Assembly: GCA_020056225.1 (NCBI GenBank)
Contig: JAGVIE010000002.1
Location: forward strand, 32,846-96,845
Direction: 5' to 3'
From: Bacteroidota bacterium
GTDB lineage: Bacteria > Bacteroidota > Ignavibacteria > UBA10030 > SZUA-254
DNA length: 64,000 nt
Below are positions 39,177 to 58,292 of the stretch, in pieces. Below the pieces are notes generated by a model. It was not told the DNA's origin and ran no database searches. It saw only the letters and a list, made by a program, of their open reading frames with translations. How positions within the stretch are numbered: the stretch's first letter is position 1; each line of letters begins with the position of its first letter. The position numbers and the translations under genes were made by a program.

Positions 39177-39734
39177 TTATGCTATTGGTGTTGCTGCCTC
39201 GATAACTAATTTTTCACCACGTTCGAGTGCTTCCTGATTGATTTTTAATAGATGATGATAACGCTCGGGAAATACTTTCGGCAATGCCTTAACTACCGAA
39301 CTGATGCTCACGACCTGGCAAACGCTTAAAAAAGCGCCGAGCATTACCATATTGCGTACCTTCAGATTATTCAACTTAAGTACTTCCGATTCGATGTCTA
39401 CAGGGGCTACTGTAATATCGGTGCGTGTGGGCGGCACGACAATATTACCGCTATCGTATATAAGAAGACCGTTGGGCTTTATTGATTTTTCAAATTTATC
39501 GACAGATGGTTGGTTCATAGCAACTAATGCGTCGAATTTAGAAACGATCGGAGAACTAATTCTCTTGTCGGATACTATGACAATGCAGTTTGCTGTTCCG
39601 CCGCGCATCTCCGGACCGTAGGACGGCATCCACGATACTTCTTTACCTTCAACCACACCGGAATAAGCCAATGTCATTCCCATAGAAAGAATTCCTTGTC
39701 CTCCAAATCCTGCAAATATTATTTCATGCGTCAT
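39177..39734 (-). CDS. 2-oxoacid:ferredoxin oxidoreductase gamma subunit
   Basis: IIFAGFGGQGILSMGMTLAYSGVVEGKEVSWMPSYGPEMRGGTANC. Confidence 0.93.
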   Translation of the reverse strand: MTHEIIFAGFGGQGILSMGMTLAYSGVVEGKEVSWMPSYGPEMRGGTANCIVIVSDKRISSPIVSKFDALVAMNQPSVDKFEKSIKPNGLLIYDSGNIVVPPTRTDITVAPVDIESEVLKLNNLKVRNMVMLGAFLSVCQVVSISSVVKALPKVFPERYHHLLKINQEALERGEKLVIEAATPIA

Positions 39735-40561
39735 TACTTGCTCTCCTTTATTTCTGTTGTGGCTGCGGGTGGGATAGGTTTCTTCTCGACTAATTTACCA
39801 TCTACCTTTAAATCACCCGGCGGGTAAAATGGGAACATTTTTTCCTCAATCCATTTGTTCGATTGAAGCGGAGTCATCTTCCACCCCGAAGGACAATTCG
39901 ATACGACTTCAATCAGGCATGTTCCTTTTTTCTCTTGCTGATATTTGAACGCTTTTTCTACAGCTTTTTTAAAATGACGCACCGTGGTCGGTGTGTGGAC
40001 CGAATGTCTCGTAACGTAGTATGTTCCGGGTAACATTGCGATTATCTCTGTAATTTTAAACGGGTGACCCTGTGTGTGTACTTCTCTTCCTTCAGGTGTT
40101 GTGCTTGTTTTCATTCCAACAATTGAAGTAGGAGCCATTTGTCCGCCGGTCATTCCATAGATGCCGTTGTTGATGAAAACGATAAGAAAATTTTCACCGC
40201 GATTGCAAGCGTGCATGGTTTCGGCGGTTCCGATTGCGGCAAGATCACCGTCACCTTGATATGTGAAAACAATCTTATCGGGAAGCACTCTTTTAACGCC
40301 AGTGGCAACAGCCGTTGCGCGCCCATGAGCCGCTTCCTGCATATCTATATTCATATAATTATACGCGATCACAGAACAGCCAACCGGAGCTACACCGATA
40401 GTTTTATCCTGAATACCCATTTCTTCTATAACATCCATAAGAACTTTATGAACGACGCCGTGACCGCAGCCCGGGCAATAATGCATCCGGGTTTCAGTCA
40501 GCGTGCTGGGTTTTTCCCAAACTACTTCCATCCCGTTTATTGGTTCTTGTGTTCCATTCAT
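39734..40561 (-). CDS. 2-oxoacid:ferredoxin oxidoreductase beta subunit (TPP-binding)
   Basis: YCPGCGHGVVHKVL; YQGDGDLAAIGTAETMHACNRGENFLIVFINNGIYGMTGGQMAPT. Confidence 0.95.
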   Translation of the reverse strand: MNGTQEPINGMEVVWEKPSTLTETRMHYCPGCGHGVVHKVLMDVIEEMGIQDKTIGVAPVGCSVIAYNYMNIDMQEAAHGRATAVATGVKRVLPDKIVFTYQGDGDLAAIGTAETMHACNRGENFLIVFINNGIYGMTGGQMAPTSIVGMKTSTTPEGREVHTQGHPFKITEIIAMLPGTYYVTRHSVHTPTTVRHFKKAVEKAFKYQQEKKGTCLIEVVSNCPSGWKMTPLQSNKWIEEKMFPFYPPGDLKVDGKLVEKKPIPPAATTEIKESK

Positions 40562-40562
40562 A

Positions 40563-41669
40563 TTACACCTTTTCCTTAATCAATTTCTCAGAAGATTTTT
40601 TCGGCTGAGTCTTATTCATTAATTTCTTGAGAGATGTTAATGTATCTTCAGGTGTCGGAATGATGCCGCCCATTCTGCCATAAAAATCAACGGGTATTTT
40701 ACCGTTCACCCCGAGTCTAACATCTTCAACCATCTGACCGGCGTTCATCTCTACAACAAGAATGCCGCGCACCTGATCCGCCAATTTGCTTACCATCTCG
40801 TAAGGGTATGGATAAAGAGAAATTGGACGTAACAAACCAACCTTTATTCCTTGCTGGCGCGCTATTTCAATTACCCTTTGGCATATCCTGGCAGAAAGTC
40901 CGTATGCAACTAAAAGATATTCTGCATCATCTGTCGATATCAATTCGTATCGTACTTCATTCTTTTCGATCTGACGGTACTTTTCTTGAAGATGGATATT
41001 GATTTTTTCCATGTCTTCGGACTGCAGATGAAGTGAAGTGATAACGTTGGGCGGACGGTTAGCTGTCTTGCCGGTTGTAGCCCACGGCTTTGATATTTTA
41101 CGCTGTTTAGGATCGTAGTCGGGAAAAATAACTTTTTCCATCATCTGCCCGAGTGCGCCATCAGCCAGTATTAAAACCGGATTTCTGTATTTATCGGCAA
41201 GATCAAAACCGAGATAAACATAATCAGCCATCTCTTGTACGCTTGCTGGAGCTAATACTATTAAATGATAATCTCCGTGTCCGCCGCCTTTAACTGATTG
41301 GAAGTAATCACCTTGTGACGGCTGGATTGTTCCCAACCCGGGACCACCGCGGTTAATGTTTATCAGCAAGCAAGGCAGTTCGGCGCAGGCTATATACGAT
41401 AGTCCTTCCTGCATTAGACTGATTCCGGGACTTGACGAAGACGTCATCACGCGCGCACCGGCACCAGCCGCACCATAAACCATATTGATTGCAGCGACTT
41501 CACTCTCCACCTGCATAACAACCATGCCACGTTTGCGTCCTTGATCTGCGAGATATTCGATAACCTCAGATTGCGGTGTGATAGGATAACCAAAATAAGC
41601 ATCGCACCCGGCAAGTATTGCTGCCTCAGCTGCCGCTTCATTACCCTCCATTAATAGAACTTCACTCAT
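40563..41669 (-). CDS. 2-oxoacid:ferredoxin oxidoreductase alpha subunit
   Basis: MEGNEAAAEAAILAGCDAYFGYPITPQSEVIEYLA; TSSSSPGISLMQEGLSYIACAELPCLLININRGGPGLG. Confidence 0.95.
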   Translation of the reverse strand: MSEVLLMEGNEAAAEAAILAGCDAYFGYPITPQSEVIEYLADQGRKRGMVVMQVESEVAAINMVYGAAGAGARVMTSSSSPGISLMQEGLSYIACAELPCLLININRGGPGLGTIQPSQGDYFQSVKGGGHGDYHLIVLAPASVQEMADYVYLGFDLADKYRNPVLILADGALGQMMEKVIFPDYDPKQRKISKPWATTGKTANRPPNVITSLHLQSEDMEKINIHLQEKYRQIEKNEVRYELISTDDAEYLLVAYGLSARICQRVIEIARQQGIKVGLLRPISLYPYPYEMVSKLADQVRGILVVEMNAGQMVEDVRLGVNGKIPVDFYGRMGGIIPTPEDTLTSLKKLMNKTQPKKSSEKLIKEKV

Positions 41670-41983
41670 ATGTCCAATCTCCCTTCCCCGGCTGGAACAT
41701 CCGGATTATCAACCATAATTTTAATATCATGCTTTACATTCGTAATCGTTGCAATTGGATCTTTCTTTTTCCCCGCTCTGTATACAGTAATAACTGCATC
41801 CGGACATACTAATGCACAATTAATGCAGCCGGTACAATTATCCTGAATAAGAACGGCGTAGTGATATCCTTTTGTATTTATTTCCTTCGACATCGCGAGA
41901 CTATCCTGGGGACATGCTTCGATACAAAGCTCGCACCCCTTACATGTCTCGACATCGATCTTAACGGTTCCACGTACTGCCAT
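41666..41983 (-). CDS. 4Fe-4S ferredoxin-type subunit of 2-oxoacid oxidoreductase
   Basis: CKGCELCIEACP and CTGCINCALVCP. Confidence 0.95.
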   Translation of the reverse strand: MAVRGTVKIDVETCKGCELCIEACPQDSLAMSKEINTKGYHYAVLIQDNCTGCINCALVCPDAVITVYRAGKKKDPIATITNVKHDIKIMVDNPDVPAGEGRLDI

Positions 41984-42062
41984 GTTTTTTCCTCAATTAT
42001 TTATTCAGTTAATACATTTTCTATGGTTAATTGCTCTTAATACTTTTCAAGACCATCAGTTT

Positions 42063-44315
42063 TTATTCGTGCCGTTGGGCATCCTGAACAGCCATCGCTG
42101 TAATATTGACGATATCCGTTACATCATTCCCCGGTATGAGCAGATAAACCGGTTTTCTTATACCCATCAATATCGGTCCAACCGCAGTAGCACCACCCAG
42201 ACGAGCTAACAATTTATATGCGATATTCGCCGACGTCAGGTCGGGACAAATTAGAACATTCGCTCCGCCTTTTAGTGTACTAAACGGATAGATTTCATTT
42301 ACGATATCCGGCACTACGGCTGTATCGGCTTGCATCTCGCCATCGATTATCAGACTGGGCAATTTCTTTTTTACAATTTCAACAGCCGATTTTACTTTAT
42401 CGGTAAGTGGATGATGTGTACTGCCGAAGTTACTGAACGAAAGCATCGCGATTCTCGGCTCGACATCATATTGCCGTACTTTTTCTGCCGTAAGCATTGC
42501 GATCTGTGCAAGTTGTTCTGCTGTCGGCTCGATATTCACTGTTGCATCGGCAATAAAGATGATCTCGTTTTTGAAAATCATCATATAAAGTCCCGCGACA
42601 ATATCCATATCATCACGGTGCCCGATAATCTGTAACGCAGGCTTGACGGTTTCTGGGTAATTCTGAGTCAATCCGGAGATTAAACCATCCGCATCACCCT
42701 CGCGCACCATCATCATGCCGTAATAATTCTCTATCTTGAGTAATCTTTCGGCATCGAAATGAGTCGTGCCTCTGCGTTTCCGGTTTTCATAAAACTTCGC
42801 TACATAGTCTCGATACTTTGGCGACTCAACCGGATTTATTATTTCGATACCATCCAGCTCACCGCCCAGTTCTTTAATCTTATGCTCGATAACTTTAACA
42901 TCCCCCAATAGGATTGGATGAGCAATTTTCTCATCAAGAATAATTTGCGCCGCACGGAGAATTTTAGATTCTTCGCCTTCCGGAAACACAATTTTTTTCG
43001 GTGATCGTTGTGCTTTATGTATAAAAACACGCATTACTTCGCGTGATTTGCCGAGGCGTGCCTCAAGTGAATCCCTATATGCTTCAAAATCTTTTATCTG
43101 GACACGAGCCACGCCGGTTTCCATCGCTGTTTTGGCAACTGCCGGGGCTTCCCACAATAGAACACGAGGATCAAGAGGTTTCGGAATGATATAATCTTTC
43201 CCGAATCCGAGTTTCTTTCCGCCGTATGCACGTATCACAGAATCCGGCACATCTTCCTTCGCAAGTTTAGCAAGCGCCATTGATGCGGCAACTTTCATCT
43301 TGTCGTTAATTTGGGTTGCGCGAACATCCAATGCGCCGCGGAAGATAAACGGAAATCCAAGAACATTGTTGACCTGGTTCGGATAATCCGAGCGACCAGT
43401 ACCCATAATAACATCATCCCGCGCAGCGACCGCGTCAGGATATGTAATTTCCGGATCAGGATTAGCCATCGCAAAGACGATGGGTTTATCAGCCATTGAC
43501 CGAACCATTTCCTTTGTTACAAGGTCTTTCACAGATACACCACAAAAAACATCCGCTCCTTTCATTGCATCACTGAGCGTTCGATCCTCAGTATCAACGG
43601 CAAAATATTCTTTGTATTTATTCATTCCTTCCTTCCTGCCCTTGTAAACAACCCCCTTCGTGTCCACAAGCCGGATATTATTTCGGTTCGCACCAAGGGT
43701 TTCATAATATTTTGCACAGGCAATACCTGCGGCACCTGCTCCACTAAACACTATTTTTACCTCATTTATTTTCTTACCGCAGAGCTCAAGTGCATTTATT
43801 AATCCCGCACCGCTTATGATTGCTGTTCCATGCTGATCATCGTGAAAAACAGGTATGTTCATTATTTTTTTCAGTTCTTCTTCGATCTCGAAACACTCAG
43901 GCGCTTTAATGTCTTCAAGATTAATGCCTCCAAATGTCGGCTCTAAAAGTTTTACCGCCTTAATTATCTCTTTCGGATCATGGGAATCTATTTCGATATC
44001 GAATACATCAATATCGGCAAATTTCTTAAAGAGAACGCCCTTCCCCTCCATAACGGGCTTACCTGCCAATGCGCCGATATCACCGAGACCTAACACGGCA
44101 GTACCGTTGCTTATCACCGCGACTAAATTTCCTTTTGCAGTATAGAGAAAAGCGTCTTCGGGATTCTTTTCGATTTCAAGACAAGGATCTGCAACACCCG
44201 GTGAATATGCAAGCGAGAGATCGCGTTGGGTTGCACACGGTTTCGTTGGAATAACTTCTATTTTTCCCCGACGGCCCTGCGAGTGATAATCTAGTGCGTC
44301 TTGTTTGCGTATCAT
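42063..44315 (-). CDS. maeB: NADP-dependent malic enzyme with C-terminal phosphotransacetylase-like domain
   Basis: [33 protein letters not shown]-terminal PTA-like [17 protein letters not shown]. Confidence 0.93.
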
Positions 44316-44420
44316 GATTCTAACCTTCCTGTTAGTTTTGAAGATTTCTTCTTATGTTCAAGTGTACTATTGTAACGCTCTTACTTCAAACAACGTATCG
44401 GCAACATCATAATAATTTTG

Positions 44421-45755
44421 TTATCGGATTGCCTTTCCGGTGTTCATGTAAAACGACGGCGATAAATAATTTTGTTCAAAGGCATATTGTTCCAATTGTT
44501 CACGAAATTCCGGATGTGAAATATTAATCAGCGCTTTAACACGCTGACCGAGATTCTTACCGTGAAGATAAGCGATCCCGTATTCCGTAACGATGTAATG
44601 AACATCGGCTCGGGTTGTGACAACACCCGCGCCGGATTTTAGCATGGGTACGATTCGTGATATTGTATTGTTCTTCGTAGTCGATGGAAGAGCGATTATT
44701 GGTTTACCTCCTTTTGAGCGAGCGGCGCCGCGTATGAAATCGAGCTGACCGCCAAAACCGCTGTAAATTTTCGAGCCGATAGAATCGGAGCAAACCTGTC
44801 CGGTAATATCTATTTCAATAGCCGAATTAATCGCCACCATTTTTTCATTTCTCGATACTATAAACGGATCGTTCGTATAATCGGCAGGGTGAATCTCGAA
44901 ATAAGGATTATTGTCAACATAAGAATAAAGCTGCCGCGATCCGAAAATAAACGTTGCAATAATCTTACCGGGATGCAATGTTTTTTTTGCGTTTGTTATT
45001 ATTCCTGAATCGATCAGCTTTACAATACCATCCGACACCATTTCAGTGTGAATACCAAGATCTCGCTTGTTCGTCAACGATTGAAGCACAGCGTCCGGAA
45101 TTCCGCCGATGCCCAATTGTAATGTTGAATTGTCTTCCACTAACTCTGCAATGTATTGCCCGATCCGATATTCAATTTCTGATGGAGGATCTTTGGATAA
45201 TTCGGGTAATTCATTCGAATATTCGACTAACCGATGAACCCTCGATACATGTATGAAGGAATCACCGAGCGTTCTGGGCATTCTTTCATTAACTTGTGCA
45301 ATCACGAGCTTCGCACTCTCAGCGGCGGCTTTGGTCGCAAGGCATTCGACCCCATAGCTCATGAATCCATGTTCATCGGGTGGAGACACCTGAATAATCG
45401 CAACATCAAGAGGTATAAGTTTTTGAGTGAATAAAGATGGAATCTCAAAGAGAAATATCGGCACATAATCAGATCGTCCCTCGTTGATTGCCTTGCGATC
45501 TGCCGGTCCTACGAATAACGAGTTGTGCCGAAAGTGTTCCTCCATGCCTGGTTTCGACAGCGGATCGTCTCCAATCAAGAGAACATGGTTTACTTCAACA
45601 TGATTTAGTTCGTCTTTACGCGCCGCAAGCGGTTCTATTAAAATAAACGGTGTGGCAGCATTACCGCTGATAAAAATCTTATCCTCAGATTTAACATGAG
45701 ATACCGCTTCTTCCGGAGTTGTAAGTTTTTGTTTATATTGTGTAACCCAGTTCAT
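44421..45755 (-). CDS. Acetyl-CoA hydrolase/CoA-transferase family protein
   Basis: LQLGIGGIPDAVLQSLTNKRDLGIHTEMVSDG; VTEYGIAYLHGKNL. Confidence 0.9.
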   Translation of the reverse strand: MNWVTQYKQKLTTPEEAVSHVKSEDKIFISGNAATPFILIEPLAARKDELNHVEVNHVLLIGDDPLSKPGMEEHFRHNSLFVGPADRKAINEGRSDYVPIFLFEIPSLFTQKLIPLDVAIIQVSPPDEHGFMSYGVECLATKAAAESAKLVIAQVNERMPRTLGDSFIHVSRVHRLVEYSNELPELSKDPPSEIEYRIGQYIAELVEDNSTLQLGIGGIPDAVLQSLTNKRDLGIHTEMVSDGIVKLIDSGIITNAKKTLHPGKIIATFIFGSRQLYSYVDNNPYFEIHPADYTNDPFIVSRNEKMVAINSAIEIDITGQVCSDSIGSKIYSGFGGQLDFIRGAARSKGGKPIIALPSTTKNNTISRIVPMLKSGAGVVTTRADVHYIVTEYGIAYLHGKNLGQRVKALINISHPEFREQLEQYAFEQNYLSPSFYMNTGKAIR

Positions 45756-45775
45756 AGTTCACAGTGCGAGATTTT

Positions 45776-46897
45776 TTACTCAGTTAACATTGTTTGAATA
45801 TCAATCGGCTTAATGCCGAATCTTCGGGCGATCACATCGTTAGTGCAAGCTCCATCGAAAGTGCAAACTCCGCGAGCGAGTCCGATATTATCACGTAGTG
45901 TTTGATTTATACCTTTTTGTACAACCTCCGTCAAGTACGGCAACAAAGCGTTTGTTAAACCATATGTAGCAGTGCGCGCGACGTTAGCCGGCATGTTGGG
46001 TACGCAATAATGGATTACATTATGAACTACATAGGTCGGATTTTCCAATGTAGTAGGCCTGCTCGTCTCAATGCATCCTCCCTGATCGATTGAGACATCG
46101 ACAATAATTGAGCCGGGTTTCATTTTCTTAACCATCTCTTCAGTTATCACATGAGGTGCGCGTTCTGCTTTAATAAGAACGGCACCGATGAGAACATCGG
46201 CATAATGCAATGCTTTTTGAATATTGTATTCATTAGCTATAGCCGTTGCGATCCGATAATTGAATTGATTCGCAAGCGCGCGAAGTCTGCTGTAATCTTT
46301 ATCCAAAACAATCACCTCTGCACCTAAGCCCAAAGCGATCCGGGTAGCGGCTCTGCCAACTGTTCCAGCGCCGAGAATAAGAACTGTTGCCGGGGGTATT
46401 CCCGTAATTCCACCCATTACTATACCCCTTCCGTTGGCGTTGCTTTCTAGGTATCGTGCCGCCGCTTGTATTGCCATTTGTCCTGCAATCTCACTCATCA
46501 CGAGGAGGATGGGAAGATCACCGTACTGGTCTTCCATAAGTTCAAATGCTACTGCGCAAATCTTTTTCTCGAGTAAGAGATTCACAGTTTCTGTTCTGGC
46601 GATCGCAAGATGAAGAGCTGAAAATAATGTCTGTGACTCTGTTAGTCTCTGACAATCCTCGACAGTGGGCGGTGATACTTTTAATACGACCTCTGAACGA
46701 CCAAAGATCTCATCCGTTGAGTAGACAATCTTGCCGCCGACATTTTCATATTCTTCGTTTGAAAAATGCGCCGCAATTCCTGCATCTTTCTCGATGAATA
46801 CCTGGCATCCGCTGCTGACAAGCGATTGGACACCAGCAGGAGTTAGTCCGACTCTTCTTTCCCTGGAAGGATCTTCCCTTGGTATACCTATGTTCAT
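45776..46897 (-). CDS. ald: Alanine dehydrogenase
   Basis: MNIGIPREDPSRERRVGLTPAGV; VLILGAGTVGRAATRIALGLGAEVIVLD; VDVSIDQGGCIETSRPTT. Confidence 0.88.
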   Translation of the reverse strand: MNIGIPREDPSRERRVGLTPAGVQSLVSSGCQVFIEKDAGIAAHFSNEEYENVGGKIVYSTDEIFGRSEVVLKVSPPTVEDCQRLTESQTLFSALHLAIARTETVNLLLEKKICAVAFELMEDQYGDLPILLVMSEIAGQMAIQAAARYLESNANGRGIVMGGITGIPPATVLILGAGTVGRAATRIALGLGAEVIVLDKDYSRLRALANQFNYRIATAIANEYNIQKALHYADVLIGAVLIKAERAPHVITEEMVKKMKPGSIIVDVSIDQGGCIETSRPTTLENPTYVVHNVIHYCVPNMPANVARTATYGLTNALLPYLTEVVQKGINQTLRDNIGLARGVCTFDGACTNDVIARRFGIKPIDIQTMLTE

Positions 46898-47094: not shown

Positions 47095-48342
47095 TCACAC
47101 CCAACCCCGAAGTTTACACGACTCAGCAACCCGCGCGACTCCGACTATCATTGCAGCTAATCTCGGATGGACTTTCTTTTCCCTGATTGCTTCCTGTACC
47201 GAATGATATGCCTTGGTTAATTTAAGATCGAGCCGCTGATGCACAACATCTTCATCCCAGAAGAACGAATAACTGTCCTGAACCATTTCAAAATAAGAAA
47301 CCGTTACTCCACCGGCGCTCCCAAGAATATCCGGAATAACATGAACCCGATTTTTATAAAGTATCTCATCCGCTTCCGGTGTTGTTGGACCGTTTGCAAG
47401 CTCACACACAATTTTTGCTTTTATTCTCGATGCATTTCTATCACTGATGGAATTCTCAAGCGCAGCCGGATATAGTACCTCCACATTGGCTTCAAGAACT
47501 TCATCGTGATGAATTGGCGTTGACCCCGGGAATCCGACCACAGAACCCGTTGTCAATTTATACGTAACAAGTTCTTTGGGATTGAATCCTTTGGAATTAT
47601 AAATCGCTCCGCGTGAATCGCTTACTGCAATAAGCATTCCGCCGCCGAGTAATTCCTGATGGAGAAGTGCCGCCCGCTGACCCGCAGTACCGAAACCTTG
47701 AATCGCATATTTTCCTTTCGGGTTGACACCAAGAATTTTACATGCCTCACGAACAGTCACTACTCCGCCTCTTGCTGTTGCATCTCGTCTGCCTTCGGTA
47801 CCTCCCATCTGGAGCGGTTTATCTGTCAGTACTCCGGGTTGATGCCGATGAACGATCGTCTCATATTCATCCATCATCCAAACCATTGTTTGGGGATTTG
47901 TGTAAACATCGGGTGCGGGAATATCTTTGTCGATTCCCAGATGTTCGAACACACCACGTATGTAACCACGTGATAAATTTTCTAATTCTCTTAAGGACAT
48001 GGATTTAGGGTCGCATACAACGCCGCCTTTCCCGCCGCCAAGCGGAAGATCTACTACCGCAGTCTTCCAAGTCATCCAGCATGCAAGCGCACGAATCGTA
48101 TCGACTGTCTCATCAGGATGAAACCGGATGCCGCCTTTTGCCGGACCGCGAGACGTGTTGTATTGAATTCGCCAGGCATGAAATATATTTATATTCCCGT
48201 TATCCATCCTTACAGGAATTGTAAATTTAAATTCTCTCTGGGGCCATGTAAGAAGATCGATGGTAGCTTTATCAAGATTTAATATCTTTGCCGCTTCCAT
48301 TATCTGTTCCTGTGCAACATGAAAAGAATTGTATGATTCCAT
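47095..48342 (-). CDS. Glu/Leu/Phe/Val dehydrogenase (RocG/GudB-type glutamate dehydrogenase)
   Basis: GPAKGGIRFHPDETVDTIRALACWMTWKTAVVDLPLGGGKGGVVCDP. Confidence 0.93.
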   Translation of the reverse strand: MESYNSFHVAQEQIMEAAKILNLDKATIDLLTWPQREFKFTIPVRMDNGNINIFHAWRIQYNTSRGPAKGGIRFHPDETVDTIRALACWMTWKTAVVDLPLGGGKGGVVCDPKSMSLRELENLSRGYIRGVFEHLGIDKDIPAPDVYTNPQTMVWMMDEYETIVHRHQPGVLTDKPLQMGGTEGRRDATARGGVVTVREACKILGVNPKGKYAIQGFGTAGQRAALLHQELLGGGMLIAVSDSRGAIYNSKGFNPKELVTYKLTTGSVVGFPGSTPIHHDEVLEANVEVLYPAALENSISDRNASRIKAKIVCELANGPTTPEADEILYKNRVHVIPDILGSAGGVTVSYFEMVQDSYSFFWDEDVVHQRLDLKLTKAYHSVQEAIREKKVHPRLAAMIVGVARVAESCKLRGWV

Positions 48343-48354
48343 AACTTTAACCTT

Positions 48355-48552
48355 TTACTTTTTTGATTGATCTTCATTAGGTGAATTTTTGCCATGCAGC
48401 ATATCCAGCACTATTCTATACCAACAATGCTTGCATGTCAGGGCACGGTCGACTCCCAATAATACTTTCTCCCATGGACTTAACTCCTGACCACAGTGCG
48501 GACATACATCAAAAACTTTCTGCTGGTGCTCGCCGGTTGATTTCTTACTCAT
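48355..48552 (-). CDS. Small zinc-ribbon protein
   Basis: VCPHCGQ...LTCKHCWY; overlaps the upstream PPDK-like gene by 8 nt. Confidence 0.7.
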   Translation of the reverse strand: MSKKSTGEHQQKVFDVCPHCGQELSPWEKVLLGVDRALTCKHCWYRIVLDMLHGKNSPNEDQSKK

Positions 48553-51500
48553 AATCCACCTCGGGTTTTAAAATAACTCCATTCGATTGTTGTCCATTTA
48601 TTTTTACTACGATTGGCTTCTCAAAACGAAGATGTTTAGTAAAGGCCATCGCCTCTACAGGTTTTTGTTTTAATAACCACTCCCAATCTAGATATCCTTG
48701 TTGGTTCTGGGGATTGACCGTGAAATACCCTATCATGAAAGAGGTAATATTCTGGAAGAAATGAGAACCCTGCGAAGGCGTAACAATCATATCTTTCATG
48801 CCTGCTTCGACGATGACTCTGGCGCCGGCGATTTGTTCCCAGTTTACGGGTATGCCAAGCCAAGGATCCAGCGTTCCCCAACGCCCGATTCCTATCAGAA
48901 GATATGGCAGATGTTCAGAAATCAACTGAGCATTTATCATACTCACTTCCCTTGCGACATCACGGCTTTTTGAGCGTTCGAACAAATTATAGTCAACAAC
49001 AACAACGTCATATATATCATCGATGACTCCGTTGCCCAATACCTGATTACTCTGGCATATCAATTGAGATTCATCGATACTCTCAATCTTTAACTGTTCA
49101 GGTTCACGATGAACAACGAGGGGACGCATTTGAAGCAATCCGAACTCTCTATTGTTTCCATTTTTTTGAAGCATGCTAACAGCAAATTCGATTTCAACTG
49201 GTGTTCCCATACCCCATGTCCCCATATCTAATAACAGCTCGAGTATCTGTGGTAGAGGAAACAATTTACCAATTAATATCGGTGCGAAGGTAACAACCCT
49301 TGCACCCTGTCTGCCAAGACCTTCTGAAAGAGAATCACTCTCGGCTGAATAAGTTGAACCGACATATCGTAGGGGTCCATCCTGTTCCGCAACATCCAAT
49401 GAGAGTGATTTGATCAGCATGTCATGTGTCTCAAATCCGAAATCAGATGTAGCGTTAAGCTGCAGTGCGAAAAATTCGTGCTGTGTAGTGCCGAGAGCTT
49501 CTTTCACGGAATAAAATTGAATAATGTCTTGAGGATATTTAGGACAGAAGCGGATCGTATTACCGCCGTCGACAACTGTTTTTCCCAAACCAAGAGCGAC
49601 CGATACGGTTCCATCGGTTGATTTTTGAGGCGAGAGAGGATAAAAATTATACGATTTTGCCACGCCCGATATATCCGGATAGAATCTGTCACCGTAAGGT
49701 GTTCCTACAAGCTTTTGGACTATCACTGCCATTTTTTCTTCTTCGAGTCTATACGAAGTGATCTTGATGTAATCTTTAGCGCTTTTATAAAACGTGGATG
49801 CGTAGACACGCTTAATACTGTTCAGGAGATCGTTCAATCGTACAAGCTGATTGTAATGATTATTCGGAATCATGTACGTCTCATACACACCGGCGAACGG
49901 ATGATATTGAGAATCTTCCAACAAACTGGACGAACGAACGGCAAGCGGTGTACGTATTATATCCAGGAAAGCGGCAAGCTCACCCAAAATGTCTTCGGGG
50001 AACCTTGGAGCTTCAAGAAATTTCCTGGTAATTTCCCGATCATCGTTACAACTGAATGCAAAGTCGCGCAGATCATTTTCATCTAGGAACTGATCGAATA
50101 CATCGGTTCCGATCACGACTGCGGCTGGAACAGATATCGTGATTCCTTCGAATCTATCGCGCACATTGTAATCATTGATGAGTGTATTAACAAAACCCAG
50201 ACCTCTGGCTTTTCCTCCCAACGAACCGCCGCCGATACGAGCAACGCTTGTATCGGGATCGAAGGACTCCTTAACGAAATCTGTTATTATGCCGCGCTGA
50301 CGGATCGTTCGATAATTTTTCAACGAATCTATTAGATCATGCCGAAGATCTCCGATTGTAGAATAATCGGATACCTTGCGGGGTCTCAACTGATGAGCGA
50401 GCCAAAATTCTGTCCTCGCTTTCAACCAATTTGAAAAATGATTTCGCTCTCCGTGGAATTTCAGGCTTTCTTCAGGAACTGTTTTAATTTGTTCTTCCAA
50501 ACTTTTCAAATCGTTCGCCCTGCCAACCTCGATTCCCTCGGGGGTGCGGAATATAAAATCTCCGAAGCTGAAATACTTGTTCATGAACTGGCGCAATTCA
50601 TTCAACAACAAAGGTGAATCCTTTACCACAAATGCCGCGCCTACCTCATGCGCTGGCTTTTCATTTTCACCAACATTCGATAGAAGTAATATCGGAAGGT
50701 CCGGTTGCTCTTCTTTGATAGTCCGGGCAAGCTTTATTCCTGCCTGATGATCCTGCGCGCCATTATGCGGGAAATCGACATCCGATATAACACCAAGCAT
50801 ATAATCTTTATATTTTTGATAGTAATCGGAAGCTTCTTCGTACGTTGAGCAGAGAAGAATCTTCGGGCGGGCACGCATTCTAAGAAACTTATGGGTTTGA
50901 TTTATACCTTCCGATATCAATCGCTGTGATTGCTTGAGTATCTCAGTGTAGATAAGCGGGAGAAAAGATGAATAATATCGGATATTATCTTCAACTACGA
51001 TAATCGTTTGAATACCGACGATGCTCGTATCGTGCTCGACGTTTATATGATCTTCCAAATACTTTATTATCGCGATGATGATGCGGAAATCCCCCTGCCA
51101 AATAAAAATTTTATCGAAGACCGAAGTATCCTGATGAATCAGCAGGTATTTTAACTCGCGGTTGTCATGAGCCAGAAGAACAACCGGAATTCTTAAACCG
51201 GACTCGCGTACTAATCTTGCAAAATCGATCGCGTGCATATCATCGATATGGAGAGTAGTGACAATCAGATCAAAGCGACCCTCTTCTTTGGCAAGCGCGA
51301 TTGCCTCATGACCGCTGGAGACGCGCGTCAATTCCGGGGTATGACTTAAGTTGAATCCTTCATACTCATGACGGATAAGTTCATAGAGTCGGCCATCTTC
51401 TTCGAAGAGATACAAATCATAAAGGCTGGATACAAGTAGAACATCGCTGATCCGAAGACGCATGAGATTTTGAAATCCCTGAAACCGGTTTCCATATCCA

Positions 51501-51556
51501 TGCTCTACCCATAGAGCGTCAAGCGGATTAACTCGATCATCAAAATTGCTCTTCAT
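48545..51556 (-). CDS. Receiver-receiver-PPDK/PEP-synthase ATP-grasp fusion protein, paralog 1
   Basis: Degenerate REC (res ~35-165), REC with IIVVEDN...GVISDVDFPHNG...FVVKDSP, then RIGGGSLGGKARGLGF...PLAVRSSSLLEDSQYHPFAGVYETY...EIEFAV. Confidence 0.8.
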   Translation of the reverse strand: MKSNFDDRVNPLDALWVEHGYGNRFQGFQNLMRLRISDVLLVSSLYDLYLFEEDGRLYELIRHEYEGFNLSHTPELTRVSSGHEAIALAKEEGRFDLIVTTLHIDDMHAIDFARLVRESGLRIPVVLLAHDNRELKYLLIHQDTSVFDKIFIWQGDFRIIIAIIKYLEDHINVEHDTSIVGIQTIIVVEDNIRYYSSFLPLIYTEILKQSQRLISEGINQTHKFLRMRARPKILLCSTYEEASDYYQKYKDYMLGVISDVDFPHNGAQDHQAGIKLARTIKEEQPDLPILLLSNVGENEKPAHEVGAAFVVKDSPLLLNELRQFMNKYFSFGDFIFRTPEGIEVGRANDLKSLEEQIKTVPEESLKFHGERNHFSNWLKARTEFWLAHQLRPRKVSDYSTIGDLRHDLIDSLKNYRTIRQRGIITDFVKESFDPDTSVARIGGGSLGGKARGLGFVNTLINDYNVRDRFEGITISVPAAVVIGTDVFDQFLDENDLRDFAFSCNDDREITRKFLEAPRFPEDILGELAAFLDIIRTPLAVRSSSLLEDSQYHPFAGVYETYMIPNNHYNQLVRLNDLLNSIKRVYASTFYKSAKDYIKITSYRLEEEKMAVIVQKLVGTPYGDRFYPDISGVAKSYNFYPLSPQKSTDGTVSVALGLGKTVVDGGNTIRFCPKYPQDIIQFYSVKEALGTTQHEFFALQLNATSDFGFETHDMLIKSLSLDVAEQDGPLRYVGSTYSAESDSLSEGLGRQGARVVTFAPILIGKLFPLPQILELLLDMGTWGMGTPVEIEFAVSMLQKNGNNREFGLLQMRPLVVHREPEQLKIESIDESQLICQSNQVLGNGVIDDIYDVVVVDYNLFERSKSRDVAREVSMINAQLISEHLPYLLIGIGRWGTLDPWLGIPVNWEQIAGARVIVEAGMKDMIVTPSQGSHFFQNITSFMIGYFTVNPQNQQGYLDWEWLLKQKPVEAMAFTKHLRFEKPIVVKINGQQSNGVILKPEVDYE

Positions 51557-51720
51557 TCGTTTCTTCCGGTTTATGTAGAGTTATCTAATTAATGATATCA
51601 GCGCTTATTAAGAATTCCAGATGCCCTTATGGTGTACACTCATAAATCAGCGTCGCGCTTTATTTACAAATCCCACTGAATCTATGAAGATTACTTGAAG
51701 AAGGGGCGGAAGCGAACAAA

Positions 51721-52098
51721 CTAACAACTCGATTTTTTCAGTTTGTCTAACTCCTCTTTTGTATATTTGATGAATTTATTTTTCTTATCGACAATGATTA
51801 TTTTGGGCTTCGGCGGTTTCGCCGAAATCTGAAACGTCATTATTATCACTTCATCGCCCTTCTTGATAAGATGAGCAGCCGCACCATTCATGCAAATCAT
51901 TCCTGAATTTTTCCTGCCCTTGATAACATACGTTTCCAATCTGTTACCGTTAATATTATCAACCACTAACACTTTTTCATATTCTGCAATATCAGCTTTC
52001 TTCATCAGTGCTTCATCAATGGTAATCGAACCAACATACTTCAAGTTGGCGCTTGTTACTATGGCATTGTGTATTTTTGATTTTAAGTAGATTCGCAT
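51721..52098 (-). CDS. panD: Aspartate 1-decarboxylase-like protein
   Basis: KSKIHNAIVTSANLKYVGSITIDEALM (pro-enzyme G-S site), CMNGAAAHLIKKGDEVIIM. Confidence 0.85.
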   Translation of the reverse strand: MRIYLKSKIHNAIVTSANLKYVGSITIDEALMKKADIAEYEKVLVVDNINGNRLETYVIKGRKNSGMICMNGAAAHLIKKGDEVIIMTFQISAKPPKPKIIIVDKKNKFIKYTKEELDKLKKSSC

Positions 52099-52243
52099 TA
52101 TTTCTCTAGAATGTTATGATAAAAATATACAGAAAAATGAATGGAAGAGCAAAATAACGTGTCAATATTTGAAAAATAAGATTCGCGGAATACTTTATCC
52201 GGTAAATAGCTAAAAAATGCAATAAGGGGAAGGAATTAAAAGA

Positions 52244-52273
52244 AATAGAGACGGATTTTCACCCGTCTCTATT
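52244..52273 (-). terminator. Hairpin downstream of gdhA copy (52299-53660)
   Basis: AATAGAGACGG-(attttcac)-CCGTCTCTATT inverted repeat. Confidence 0.65.
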
Positions 52274-52298
52274 ATTATAGATAATGAAGGTTTATTGA

Positions 52299-53660
52299 TT
52301 AAACAACGCCTTGATCCATCATAGCGTCAGCAACTTTTAGGAAGCCGCCGATATTAGCGCCGTTGACATAATTACCAGGCGTACCGAAGCGTTCTGCAAC
52401 CGTAACACAAGTCTTATGAATGCTCTTCATAATATTGTGTAAACGGGTGTCAACTTCTTCACGCGTCCAAGATAACCGCATGCTGTTCTGTGACATCTCA
52501 AGTCCTGAAGTAGCAACACCACCGGCGTTGGCAGCTTTACCCGGTCCGTATAGAACCTTAGCATTCAAGAATATATTGACTCCATCGATCGTGGTGGGCA
52601 TGTTTGCACCTTCACTAATGCAATACACACCATTTTTCACCAGATTCTGTGCATCTTTGCCGTTGATTTCATTTTGAGTGGCGCTCGGGAATGCGCAGTC
52701 TGCTTTATGATTCCACAATGGATTTGAATCTTCTTTTCCGGTAAGAGGAGTGTAGACCGCTGTCTTATATTTATCGACATACTCTTTTATTCTTCCGCGG
52801 CGAATATTCTTTAACTCCATTACAAACGCTAGCTTCTCGGGAGTAATTCCTGCTTCATCATAAATGTATCCGGTCGAATCTGATAGTGTAATCGCTTTAC
52901 CTCCAAGCTGACTAATTTTCTCAACCGTGTACTGAGCAACGTTACCGCTGCCTGATACTAAGCATTTTTTTCCTTCGAGTGTCTGTTTACGAGTACCTAA
53001 CATCTCTGCCGCAAAATAAACTGCACCGTATCCAGTAGCTTCCGGACGAATGAGCGAGCCGCCCCAATTTAATCCTTTGCCTGTTAGAACGCCAGTGAAT
53101 TCGTTTCTGAGTTTCTTGTATTGTCCGAACATGAAACCAATTTCTCTTCCGCCGACACCGATATCTCCTGCCGGTACGTCGGTATTCGGACCTATATGGC
53201 GCTGTAGTTCACTCATGAATGCCTGGCAGAAACGCATGACATCGATATCACTCTTCCCTTTGGGATCAAAATCAGAACCGCCTTTGCCTCCGCCCATTGG
53301 CAATGTGGTTAAGCTGTTTTTGAATACTTGCTCGAACGCCAGGAATTTTAGAATTCCGAGGTTAACCGAAGGATGGAAACGCAAGCCGCCCTTGTAAGGA
53401 CCGATGGCGCTATTCATCTCAATACGGAATCCGCGATTGACTTGAGTGTCGCCCTTACTGTCGACCCATGGAACTCGAAACATAAGTACGCGTTCGGGTT
53501 CAATGACACGCTCGAGAATTTTTGCTGTACGATATTCAGGGTGCCGCTCAAACACGAGGGCAAGCGATTCGGCAACTTCCTGAACTGCCTGGTGAAATTC
53601 GGGTTCTGCTGGATTTTTTGCTTTTACTCCTGCCAGCAGCTCTTTTACATAATCAGACAT
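52299..53660 (-). CDS. gdhA: NADP-type glutamate dehydrogenase, copy 1
   Basis: IGPYKGGLRFHPSVNLGILKFLAFEQVFKNSLTTLPMGGGKGGSDFDPKGKSD. Confidence 0.95.
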   Translation of the reverse strand: MSDYVKELLAGVKAKNPAEPEFHQAVQEVAESLALVFERHPEYRTAKILERVIEPERVLMFRVPWVDSKGDTQVNRGFRIEMNSAIGPYKGGLRFHPSVNLGILKFLAFEQVFKNSLTTLPMGGGKGGSDFDPKGKSDIDVMRFCQAFMSELQRHIGPNTDVPAGDIGVGGREIGFMFGQYKKLRNEFTGVLTGKGLNWGGSLIRPEATGYGAVYFAAEMLGTRKQTLEGKKCLVSGSGNVAQYTVEKISQLGGKAITLSDSTGYIYDEAGITPEKLAFVMELKNIRRGRIKEYVDKYKTAVYTPLTGKEDSNPLWNHKADCAFPSATQNEINGKDAQNLVKNGVYCISEGANMPTTIDGVNIFLNAKVLYGPGKAANAGGVATSGLEMSQNSMRLSWTREEVDTRLHNIMKSIHKTCVTVAERFGTPGNYVNGANIGGFLKVADAMMDQGVV

Positions 53661-53801
53661 ATAAATCTCCTAAATAATTTGGTTGTGGTGGTTAATTAAT
53701 TTATTAAATGCTGGATTAGAATTTAATTTAGAAATTTTCTTAAGTATTAAGGAAATTAAAAATGAATTTATCGATCAACTATATCTCAATAATCAACATT
53801 A

Positions 53802-56783
53802 TCATCTACCGGGTTTTAATATTATTCCTTTGTTCTTATGTCCGTTTATCTTCACCGTGATTGGAGCTTCAAAATGCAAATGCCGCGTAAATTGCAGTTC
53901 TTCTACGGCTTGTTGCTCTCTTAACCAATTCCAATCAATAAAACCCATCTGAATAAACGAATTTACTGTAAAATATCCAATTCTGAACGAAGTAATATTC
54001 TGGAAGAAATGCGATCCCTGAGAAGGTGTAACATTGATATCCTGGAAACACGCTTCAACAATTGTTGCCGCCCCGGCTATTTGATCCCACGTTACCGGGA
54101 TTCCAAGCCATGGGTCCAGACTTCCCCAACGTCCAACACCGAGTAATAAATATGGTTTTTCCTGTGCAACCAATTTTGCATTGAGCTGGCTGACCTCGAA
54201 TGCAGTATCAGCGCTTTTTGAGCGGTCGAATTTTTCTATATCGATGACAATAATATCGTGTATATTTTTCGCAGTTCCGTTACCCAACACCATCGAACTT
54301 TGGCAGATGATATCCTTCTGATCGACATCATCAACAACAAGTTCTTCCAACTCACGGCTTAGAACCATAGGGCGGATTTGCAGCATGGCGAATTCCTTCG
54401 GCTTCGCAGGCGGTATATCCATGTTTGCGGCAAATTCAATTTCTACTTGTGTTCCCATTCCCCATGTTCCCATCCTGAGCATTACTTCCAATATTTCAGG
54501 CAACGGATAGATTTTATGTTTGAGGATCGGCGCGAACGTTACTACTCTCTTCCCGCTTCGCGATATTCCATCATAGACAGTATCGTTCTCCGCAGAATAA
54601 GTAGACCCGACATAAAATAAGGTTTGATCTTCTTCAGCTTTGCTCATATCGGATTTTTCAACAAACTTTTCCGGCGTAATATGCCCGTCATCTGCGAGAC
54701 CGTACTCAAGGTTCAGCGCATAAAAGTCCTGCTGTGCATTTTTGAGAGTTTCGTTTGTAGTAAAAAATTGCATGAGATGGCGGGGATATTTCGAACAAAA
54801 ACGCACTGTGTTGCCGCCATCGACAACGGTCTTGCCTAATCCGAGAGCAACAAGAACAATTCCATCTGTTGACGCCTGTGGCGGGACAGGATAAAAATTA
54901 TACGATTTAGCAACGCCTGAAAAGTCAGGATAAAATCTTCCGTGATGTTCGGCTCCGACCATTCGCTGTATGATGACCGCCATTTTCTCTTCCTCGAGGC
55001 GGTAAGCAGTTGCCTTCATATAATCTTTGACCTTGTTTGAAAACGTTGATGCGAAGACCAATTTGATACTCTGTAGCAATTCACGAAGCCTTATCGAATC
55101 GTCGGGATTATTGTTCGGAATCATGAATGTCTGATAGACGCCGGCGAACGGCTGATACTGTGAGTCTTCCAGCAGGCTCGATGAACGCACCGCAAGCGGT
55201 TCATGAATGATATCCAAAAACTGGACAAGTTTTGCTATAACATCCTCGGGGAATTTCAATGCGCCAAGAAATTTTTTCTTAACTTCATCATCATTTATCT
55301 CATGAAGTGCGAAATTCTCAAGATCATTTTCCTGCATGAACCAATCGAAAACATCCGTGGCGATAACTACGGCAGATGGCACCGATATTTCAACATCCTT
55401 GAACTTATCTCTTAAATTATAGTTGCTGATGAGCGAGTTGATAAAACCAAGGCCGCGCGCTTTCCCTCCCAGCGAACCGCCGCCAATTCTGGCAAAACTA
55501 TTTTTCGGATCGAAAGTTTCAGGGTTAAACTCTGTTATGATTCCGCGCTGTTGAAGTTCACGGTATAATCTGAGTGAACTGAGTAATTCCTGCCGTAAAT
55601 CCTCAATTGAAACGAAATCGGTTACCTTTCTGGGACGAAGCCGATGCGCTAGCCAGAATTCAGTTCTCGCTTTCAGCCAAACAGAAAAATGATTTCGTTC
55701 GGCATGGTATAAAATGCTCTCTTCGGGTACGATCTGCAACTGCTCTTCAAGCGTTTTGAGATCATTTGCGCGTCCGACCTGTCTGCCATCCGGAACTCTA
55801 AATACAAAATCACCAAAGCCGAAGTTGCTCATCATGAACTTCCGCAATCTGCTGAGAAGGCGCGGAGATCCCTTCAGTAAAAAGAATGCGCCAATCTGTT
55901 TGGCTTTTTCTTCAATTTCCGCATTACTTGTTTGAAGAACTATGGGAATATCGGCGTGTTTGTTTTTGACATTCTTTGCAAATGTAAATCCCGCCTCTGG
56001 ATCCCGTTCACCATCGCGCATGAACGATACATCGGAAATAATTCCCAAAACAAAATCCTGGTATTTTTCAAAATAATACCATGCTTCTTCATAGGTTGTG
56101 CAAAGTAATATTTTGGGTCTTGCTCTCATACGTAAGAGCCGGTGAGATACGTTCACTCCTTCTAAGATTAAACGCTTGGATTGATTATGGATTTCAGTGT
56201 AGATTAGCGGAAGGTAAGATGAATAAAATTTTATGTTGTCTTCAACAAGAATGATGGATTGCACGCCGACACTCAGCGTATCATTTTCAACATTCAGCCT
56301 GTCTTCAAGATATTTTATTATGCCGATCAGCAAACGATAATCACCTTGCCAGATGAATATTTTTTCGAAAACCGATGTATCATAATTTTCGATCAGCTCC
56401 TTCATTTCGTTATTATCGTATGCGAGAACGACTATAGGTGTCTTCAAGCCGGCTTCACGAACTGCTTTCGCGAATTTCGTTACGTGCATATCCTCGATGT
56501 GAAGCGTGGTGATGATAAGATCGAAGTGTTCTTCCACTGCTGCAAGCTCTATTGCTTCAATTCCGCTGGTAACGTGAGTGATCTCTGGCGGGTGACTTAG
56601 ATTAAGCACCTGAAATTCCTGCCGGATAAGCTCATACAATCGACCGTCCTCCTCGAAAAGATAACTATCATACAGACTGGAAACGAGAAGGATATCCCGG
56701 ATTTTAAAACGCATCAATTTCTGGAAGGTCTTGATGCGGCTTCCGTAAACATCTTCTATCTTCAGGTGATCGATTTTAGTCAT
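53802..56783 (-). CDS. Receiver-receiver-PPDK/PEP-synthase ATP-grasp fusion protein, paralog 2
   Basis: Same architecture as 48545-51556: IILVEDN...GIISDVSFMRDG...FLLKGSP; RIGGGSLGGKARGLGF; LAVRSSSLLEDSQYQPFAGVYQTF. Confidence 0.8.
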   Translation of the reverse strand: MTKIDHLKIEDVYGSRIKTFQKLMRFKIRDILLVSSLYDSYLFEEDGRLYELIRQEFQVLNLSHPPEITHVTSGIEAIELAAVEEHFDLIITTLHIEDMHVTKFAKAVREAGLKTPIVVLAYDNNEMKELIENYDTSVFEKIFIWQGDYRLLIGIIKYLEDRLNVENDTLSVGVQSIILVEDNIKFYSSYLPLIYTEIHNQSKRLILEGVNVSHRLLRMRARPKILLCTTYEEAWYYFEKYQDFVLGIISDVSFMRDGERDPEAGFTFAKNVKNKHADIPIVLQTSNAEIEEKAKQIGAFFLLKGSPRLLSRLRKFMMSNFGFGDFVFRVPDGRQVGRANDLKTLEEQLQIVPEESILYHAERNHFSVWLKARTEFWLAHRLRPRKVTDFVSIEDLRQELLSSLRLYRELQQRGIITEFNPETFDPKNSFARIGGGSLGGKARGLGFINSLISNYNLRDKFKDVEISVPSAVVIATDVFDWFMQENDLENFALHEINDDEVKKKFLGALKFPEDVIAKLVQFLDIIHEPLAVRSSSLLEDSQYQPFAGVYQTFMIPNNNPDDSIRLRELLQSIKLVFASTFSNKVKDYMKATAYRLEEEKMAVIIQRMVGAEHHGRFYPDFSGVAKSYNFYPVPPQASTDGIVLVALGLGKTVVDGGNTVRFCSKYPRHLMQFFTTNETLKNAQQDFYALNLEYGLADDGHITPEKFVEKSDMSKAEEDQTLFYVGSTYSAENDTVYDGISRSGKRVVTFAPILKHKIYPLPEILEVMLRMGTWGMGTQVEIEFAANMDIPPAKPKEFAMLQIRPMVLSRELEELVVDDVDQKDIICQSSMVLGNGTAKNIHDIIVIDIEKFDRSKSADTAFEVSQLNAKLVAQEKPYLLLGVGRWGSLDPWLGIPVTWDQIAGAATIVEACFQDINVTPSQGSHFFQNITSFRIGYFTVNSFIQMGFIDWNWLREQQAVEELQFTRHLHFEAPITVKINGHKNKGIILKPGR

Positions 56784-56951: not shown

Positions 56952-58292
56952 TTATACTAACCCTTGATCCATCATGGCATCGGCAACTTTCAGGAATCCG
57001 GCAATATTGGCGCCGTTCACATAGTTGCCCGGAGTACAGTATTTCTCAGCTTTATCAAGACATGCTTCGTGTATCTTCGTCATGATCTGATGAAGACGAT
57101 TATCAACTTCTTCTTTGGGCCACGGCAACCGCATACTATTCTGGCTCATCTCCAGTCCTGATGTTGCTACACCGCCGGCATTGGATGCTTTCCCTGGAGC
57201 ATAGAGAATCTTTGCCTCGTGGAACACTTTGACACCCGGAATAGTCGTCGGCATGTTTGCACCTTCGCATACGCAGATACAGCCGTTCTTCACAAGTTCT
57301 TTCGCGTCGTTTTCATCTAACTCGTTTTGAGTTGCGCACGGCAAGGCGACATCTGCTTTCACTCCCCATGCTCTCTTGCCGAGGTAGAACGGGACTTTGA
57401 ATTTATCCGCGTAGAGTTTCACTTCATCTCGCGCGCTTGCCCGCATCTCCAACATAAAATCGATTTTCTCTCCTTTTATTCCGTCCTTATCATGGATGAA
57501 TCCATCAGGACCGGAAAGAGTAACAACTTTTCCGCCAAGCTCCGAAATTTTGAGAGCCGCGCCCCATGCAACATTACCAAAGCCGGAGACTACAACCGTC
57601 TTGCCGTCAAAGGATTGGTTACGGGTTTTCAACATCTCCTGAGCAAAATAAACAGCGCCGAATCCTGTCGCTTCCGGACGTATAAGCGATCCGCCCCAAT
57701 TCAATCCTTTACCGGTTAACACACCGGTGAATTCTTTTGTTAGTCGTTTAAACTGACCGTATAAAAAACCAATCTCGCGTCCGCCAACACCAATATCGCC
57801 GGCAGGTACATCGATATCCGCACCGATGTGTCGATACAACTCAGTCATGAAACTCTGACAGAAGCGCATAACCTCAAGATCGCTTTTTCCTTTTGGATCG
57901 AAATCGGAGCCGCCCTTACCGCCGCCCATAGGCAACGATGTAAGACTGTTTTTAAAAACTTGTTCGAAAGCAAGAAATTTTAATATGCTAAGTGTAACCG
58001 ACGGGTGAAAACGTAGGCCTCCTTTATATGGTCCTATCGCGCTATTCATCTGAATACGGAAACCTCTATTGATATGGAATTCACCACGATCATCCATCCA
58101 GGGAACTCTGAACATAACTACGCGTTCCGGTTCCACCATTCGTTCAATAATTTTTGCCGACCGATACTCAGGATGTTTTTGAAGAACAAGCTCAAGCGAC
58201 TCTAGTACTTCTTCTACCGCCTGATGGAATTCAACTTCACCTGCATTTTTTGCTTTCACTTGGGCAATCAAATTTTTTACATACTCTGACAT
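56952..58292 (-). CDS. gdhA: NADP-type glutamate dehydrogenase, copy 2
   Basis: IGPYKGGLRFHPSVTLSILKFLAFEQVFKNSLTSLPMGGGKGGSDFDPKGKSD. Confidence 0.95.
   Translation of the reverse strand: MSEYVKNLIAQVKAKNAGEVEFHQAVEEVLESLELVLQKHPEYRSAKIIERMVEPERVVMFRVPWMDDRGEFHINRGFRIQMNSAIGPYKGGLRFHPSVTLSILKFLAFEQVFKNSLTSLPMGGGKGGSDFDPKGKSDLEVMRFCQSFMTELYRHIGADIDVPAGDIGVGGREIGFLYGQFKRLTKEFTGVLTGKGLNWGGSLIRPEATGFGAVYFAQEMLKTRNQSFDGKTVVVSGFGNVAWGAALKISELGGKVVTLSGPDGFIHDKDGIKGEKIDFMLEMRASARDEVKLYADKFKVPFYLGKRAWGVKADVALPCATQNELDENDAKELVKNGCICVCEGANMPTTIPGVKVFHEAKILYAPGKASNAGGVATSGLEMSQNSMRLPWPKEEVDNRLHQIMTKIHEACLDKAEKYCTPGNYVNGANIAGFLKVADAMMDQGLV

Follow-up and report, generated by a model that had tools for sequence, protein, structure and literature searches.

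Receiver-fused ATP-grasp proteins with a distinct tail domain are encoded beside glutamate dehydrogenase genes in several bacterial phyla

In PPDK and PEP synthase, an ATP-grasp domain (PF01326), whose catalytic residues are Lys, Arg and those of D/E-x-E-F and LQ-x-R, works with a swivel and a PEP/pyruvate barrel. Rifampin phosphotransferase (Rph) shares this type of ATP-grasp domain and carries its catalytic His on a swivel. In PleD and PorX, receivers gate an enzymatic output, GGDEF or PglZ. GlnE and GlnD, which are Pol-beta nucleotidyltransferases, control glutamine synthetase and PII. Glutamate dehydrogenase (GDH) joins carbon and nitrogen metabolism, and its covalent control in bacteria is poorly understood as compared to that of glutamine synthetase. 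Fusions of receivers with PPDK-type modules (REC-PPDK) are already known, since two surveys mention them (PMC5847659, PMC4395418), the latter associating Asp-less receivers with PPDK effectors. The proteins studied here probably represent the same kind of fusion as the REC-PPDK of PMC4395418. The survey passages on REC-PPDK mention neither a missing barrel nor a tail domain, a link to GDH or further architectures. In the searchable literature, we found neither a study dealing with the family or its linkage to GDH nor an account of the features reported below: absence of the barrel, tail, pairing with GDH, nucleotidyltransferase and other architectures.

The window, that is the whole 64,000-nucleotide stretch of DNA analysed, encodes two paralogues of about 1000 residues, RRG1 and RRG2. 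They are read from open frames of 1003 and 993 aa on the minus strand, at the place given in the initial annotation, and all the motifs quoted there were found in them. The two proteins are 61% identical, have an identical domain order (Table 1) and are the only genes of the RRG type in the genome, which is 3.5 Mb in size and Ignavibacteriales-like, its closest named relatives being Ignavibacteriales/Ignavibacteriae MAGs. Searches against Pfam returned PPDK_N (PF01326, E 1e-37 to 1e-38). Receivers (Response_reg) matched weakly, near the cut-off, and DUF5752 also gave a weak match. An AlphaFold model of RRG2 was obtained with a pLDDT of 81 and a pTM of 0.60. In a fold search, the best match of this model was rifampin phosphotransferase (5hv2, E 6e-10), followed by tandem-receiver proteins such as PleD, and by PorX. 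Residue conservation was counted over 108 relatives having the same architecture (type a, see below).

Table 1. Positions of the RRG genes, their domains and neighbouring genes in the window, and of related loci elsewhere
Feature	Position	Strand	Remark
GDH_A, hexameric NADP-type glutamate dehydrogenase	56952-58292	-	immediately precedes RRG2 (gap 168 bp)
RRG2, 993 aa	53802-56783	-	pseudo-REC / REC / linker / PPDK-type ATP-grasp / tail
RRG2 first receiver, Asp-less, ~residues 28-150	56334-56702	-	
RRG2 second receiver, complete, ~residues 173-325	55809-56267	-	
RRG2 phospho-Asp D251 of second receiver	~56031-56033	-	
RRG2 DUF5752-like linker, ~residues 331-425	55509-55793	-	weak Pfam match
RRG2 PPDK_N ATP-grasp, ~residues 430-810	54354-55496	-	
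RRG2 tail domain, ~residues 815-993	53805-54341	-	
RRG2 invariant His925 in tail	54009-54011	-	
GDH_B, second hexameric NADP-type glutamate dehydrogenase	52299-53660	-	
GDH_A and GDH_B residues 40 and 42 (His40/Glu42)	genes 56952-58292, 52299-53660		
panD, aspartate 1-decarboxylase	51721-52098	-	between GDH_B and RRG1
RRG1, 1003 aa	48545-51556	-	pseudo-REC / REC / linker / PPDK-type ATP-grasp / tail
RRG1 first receiver, Asp-less	51083-51451	-	
RRG1 second receiver, complete	50558-51016	-	
RRG1 PPDK_N ATP-grasp	49106-50245	-	
RRG1 tail domain	48548-49093	-	
RRG1 invariant His932 in tail	48761-48763	-	
GDH_C, archaeal-type glutamate dehydrogenase	47095-48342	-	directly downstream of RRG1
Type-c loci	L022-L025, L141, L144-L148, L205-L214		usual cluster GDH_C-like / 580-aa form / type c
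Kinase/NarL-type regulator genes in GDH-RRG clusters	L063:9539, L080:3460-5159, L219:7322-9397, L220:10422-11858		

The PPDK-type ATP-grasp recognized in the initial annotation was confirmed both by the PF01326 match and by six catalytic residues. K441, R533, E781, E783, Q802 and R804 (RRG2 numbering) are each present in 108/108 relatives. We take them to match, by motif, Lys22, Arg92, Asp321, Glu323, Gln335 and Arg337 of Clostridium symbiosum PPDK, the mapping being based on the Pfam match and on the motifs. Unlike PPDK and PEP synthase, RRG proteins combine this domain with a new tail and N-terminal receivers. The suspected absence of the phospho-His swivel and of the PEP barrel also held, Pfam detecting neither the PEP-utilizers swivel (PF00391) nor the PEP/pyruvate TIM barrel (PF02896) in RRG1 or RRG2. 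Indeed, the tail, with only ~180 residues, leaves no room for a PEP/pyruvate barrel. NCBIfam PEP synthase models matched the N-terminal ATP-grasp part alone, far under their cut-off. A complete PPDK of 918 aa, with the swivel motif GGMTSHAA, is encoded elsewhere in the genome. A complete PPDK/PEPS domain set was sought in the RRG proteins by Pfam and fold search and was absent. That they are conventional PEP synthases or PPDKs, as the PPDK_N domain taken by itself would indicate, is therefore barely conceivable, because this reading fails on domain content and the genome already has its PPDK. This suggests that database genes likely named 'PEP synthase' may be something else.

Another possibility is that the ATP-grasp domain acts with a swivel carried by another protein. 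Split PPDK-like enzymes, of which phenylphosphate synthase is one, provide a precedent. However, a swivel family search of the genome matched only the complete PPDK and PtsI, no swivel gene constantly adjoins RRG, and RRG proteins have an invariant His in their own tail. A split dikinase is therefore improbable.

The tail was modelled alone with 60 relatives (AlphaFold), giving a pLDDT of 94 and a pTM of 0.91, which shows that it is a separate domain. It has no known relative in Pfam, among PDB sequences, among PDB folds (best E 0.05, probability 0.23) or in a viral fold library. The initial annotation had noted a conserved tail common to both proteins, and its motif, S-x-G-x-H-F-F, is invariant well beyond them: the His is retained across relatives to ~21% identity and in all three architectures described below. 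Fourteen tail columns are invariant down to 21% identity, including N868, R885, D890, E910, S921, G923 and H925; in the wider set, D890 is Glu in 4 of the 108 type-a proteins. From the pattern of conservation, these residues look like an active or ligand site standing in for the swivel and the barrel.

The similarity of S-x-G-x-H to GGxTSH raises the alternative that the tail derives from a swivel by strong divergence, RRG being a PPDK or rifampin phosphotransferase relative in unusual order. The whole-model fold match to rifampin phosphotransferase goes in the same direction, though presumably via the ATP-grasp domain, where the sequence match also lies. However, profile comparison of the tail with swivels gave a probability of 0.2%, as compared to 97% for the PPDK and PtsI swivels used as a positive control, and a PDB search with the confident tail model matched neither a swivel nor any other fold. 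We therefore rejected the tail as a swivel domain and consider this origin highly improbable; RRG has no counterpart of the Rph swivel with its catalytic His.

At the N-terminal side, the two receivers differ in their residues, as the initial annotation had indicated. The first, described as degenerate, is Asp-less throughout the 108 relatives: at the phospho-Asp site, Asp was found in 0/108 and T93 in 87, the rest having N, W, A or S. In addition, Ser-Ser occupies the acidic pair and Trp replaces Lys in 108/108. The domain is thus an Asp-less receiver (ALR) by its residues and a receiver by its modelled fold. The second receiver has a long insertion behind its first strand and keeps the phosphorylation residues expected of it, E181, D182, D251, S/T285 and K304, in 107-108 of the 108 relatives. 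The receiver half resembles PleD and PorX in fold and in being joined to an enzyme output that it would gate, but the output is an ATP-grasp domain instead of GGDEF or PglZ.

A possible origin of the signal was seen in four genomes (L063/L217, L080, L219 and L220), where genes for a soluble PAS-HisKA_3 histidine kinase and a NarL-type regulator are located between RRG2 and GDH_B. There, the kinase start lies within ~20 bp of the RRG2 stop, the two genes nearly overlapping. The abutting kinase is therefore a candidate for phosphorylating the second receiver. In the 64-kb window, no histidine kinase gene adjoins RRG1 or RRG2.

To describe the family, named genomes were scanned with an alignment of the tail, which gave at least 594 matching stretches. 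Among the matches listed, 78 loci were kept. They come from Ignavibacteria, Acidobacteria, KSB1, Calditrichaceae, Latescibacterota, Eisenbacteria, Krumholzibacteriia, Thermoleophilia, Myxococcales and one Alphaproteobacteria MAG, among others, with taxon labels that can be misassigned for metagenome bins. Beyond the class, sampled genomes of the phylum had the tail in two cases only. The ATP-grasp domain and the tail are common to three architectures. Type a is that of RRG1 and RRG2, with receivers. Type b (~580 aa) consists of the ATP-grasp domain and the tail, without receivers. Type c (~780-1170 aa) has an N-terminal extension, of which the ~330 N-terminal residues match no Pfam family, and in 18/22 cases a Pol-beta nucleotidyltransferase motif (GS...SDIDLL) C-terminal of the tail, the form with the nucleotidyltransferase having ~1060 aa. 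A defence-system library gave a weak match to the type-c nucleotidyltransferase only and none to RRG1 or RRG2. Type c recalls GlnE and GlnD in having such a nucleotidyltransferase beside a nitrogen-assimilation enzyme; this is a resemblance only, and RRG1 and RRG2, unlike GlnE and GlnD, lack the domain. Two relatives of ~777 aa (L142:9598-11934 and L143:7799-10129) have neither a nucleotidyltransferase nor a GDH neighbour. The former adjoins an HDOD protein and the latter an unknown gene that has DXP synthase on its far side.

GDH is the sole constant neighbour of RRG. The survey of linkage to gdh proposed in the initial annotation was strongly positive: for type a, among the matches listed, the gene immediately upstream, on the same strand, encodes GDH in 44 of the 65 full-length named-genome loci with context, and 27/39 loci of the same order show this arrangement, the two sets sharing organisms. 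The GDH-linked named loci belong to Ignavibacteria, Acidobacteria, KSB1, Calditrichaceae, Thermoleophilia, Krumholzibacteriia and others, with a median gap of ~110 bp. About a third of the type-a loci among the matches listed have no GDH immediately upstream. Type b likewise adjoins GDH, its gene following either a GDH_C-like gene or a cluster of GDH and RRG. Type c is GDH-clustered in 18 of the 22 loci with context, in most cases with a GDH_C-like gene. RRG is next to GDH in two further loci from another, Flavobacteriales-like order. The suggestion that Bacteroides gdh loci carry an RRG gene was a guess which a literature search did not bear out.

RRG subclades correspond to GDH subtypes. On the RRG tree, the subtype of the neighbouring GDH requires 5 label changes as compared to 19.9 in shuffles, none of 500 being as low. 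At least three loci (L030, L102, L137) combine a GDH_A with an RRG that does not belong to the main GDH_A clade, and the pairing thus seems to have re-formed. Hexameric GDH (GDH_A/B) is present in 27/27 of the RRG-positive Ignavibacteriales genomes compared but in only 6/19 RRG-negative ones (Fisher p 2.7e-7, shared ancestry being ignored). GDH does not need RRG, since these six genomes have the hexameric enzyme without it. Overall, the GDH link of the RRG family is well supported by gene context. We also compared GDH sequences, including that of E. coli GdhA. Residues H40/E42 (KHPEY) are found in 63/67 RRG-linked and 3/15 unlinked enzymes and are lacking in the Flavobacteriales-like pairs. 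They were rejected as a mark of RRG linkage, because the contrast follows phylogeny, and the comparison yielded no GDH residue with a clear relation to this linkage.

Because relatives across several phyla adjoin gdh, RRG1 and RRG2 probably control or modify GDH instead of making PEP. The broader reading of the initial annotation, a phosphorylation-gated ATP-grasp enzyme or regulator and not a PEP synthase, is a predicted function with which every test agrees; it is supported by the lack of swivel and barrel, the PPDK encoded elsewhere, the intact second receiver and ATP-grasp residues and the kinase abutting RRG2. In its specific form, RRG as a dikinase-like, ATP-grasp-based protein that is gated by a phosphorelay and regulates the paired GDH, most likely by modifying it, we regard the prediction as having about an even chance. 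The histidine kinase would phosphorylate the second receiver, with the Asp-less first receiver as a docking or dimer partner, and the phosphorylated receiver would switch the PPDK-type ATP-grasp domain. The latter would use ATP as the donor of a phosphoryl or pyrophosphoryl group, for which the tail would provide the acceptor site. AMP-forming chemistry and a role of H925, likely as phospho-acceptor or catalytic base, are inferred from the family of the ATP-grasp domain. The tail may then pass the group to the partner GDH, or dock on it, and thereby change its activity, GDH being the presumed physical target.

The main rival is a metabolic role near glutamate, in which the ATP-grasp domain and the tail would convert a GDH substrate or product (glutamate, 2-oxoglutarate or ammonia) into a small molecule, with a flux gated by the receivers. 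The full conservation of the ATP-grasp catalytic residues, the active-site-like set of invariant polar residues in the tail (N868, R885, D890, E910, S921, H925) and a window neighbourhood of amino-acid catabolism (alanine dehydrogenase, 2-oxoacid:ferredoxin oxidoreductase, malic enzyme) are in its favour. However, the GDH paralogues are matched by one RRG paralogue each, an arrangement that a shared downstream metabolite would not call for and that argues for protein-specific action, and the constant neighbours are GDH alone. We therefore hold the metabolic role to be possible but unlikely. The paralogue pairing, together with the signalling and nucleotidyltransferase parts found around a constant core, favours a protein target.

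Action on GDH would give particular interest to RRG, a widespread family travelling with GDH over several phyla, with two-component input and a tail without relative in the libraries searched. More tentatively, RRG may be an undescribed family of GDH-dedicated modifying enzymes. These would switch GDH covalently by means of an AMP-forming ATP-grasp domain under receiver control and a new-fold catalytic-His domain, in some lineages together with a nucleotidyltransferase. If true, this would be the GDH counterpart of the control of glutamine synthetase by GlnE and GlnD.

Finally, the gene order of the window was considered. On the minus strand, GDH_A, RRG2, GDH_B, panD, RRG1, GDH_C and an alanine dehydrogenase gene are co-directional, with gaps of 141-202 bp. 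GDH_B is of the type that partners RRG1 in relatives; in the window, the two are separated by panD, which is not a constant neighbour among relatives. A terminator-like hairpin with a 13 bp stem and a T-rich tail is located behind GDH_B (52273-52244, minus strand). GDH_A-RRG2-GDH_B may form one transcript and panD-RRG1-GDH_C another, a weak reading because the count of terminator-like pattern matches is close to chance. Beside the three GDH genes, positions 39734-46897 encode a 2-oxoacid:ferredoxin oxidoreductase, a malic enzyme-phosphotransacetylase fusion, an acetyl-CoA hydrolase/transferase and the alanine dehydrogenase, a cluster that looks like one for amino-acid fermentation.
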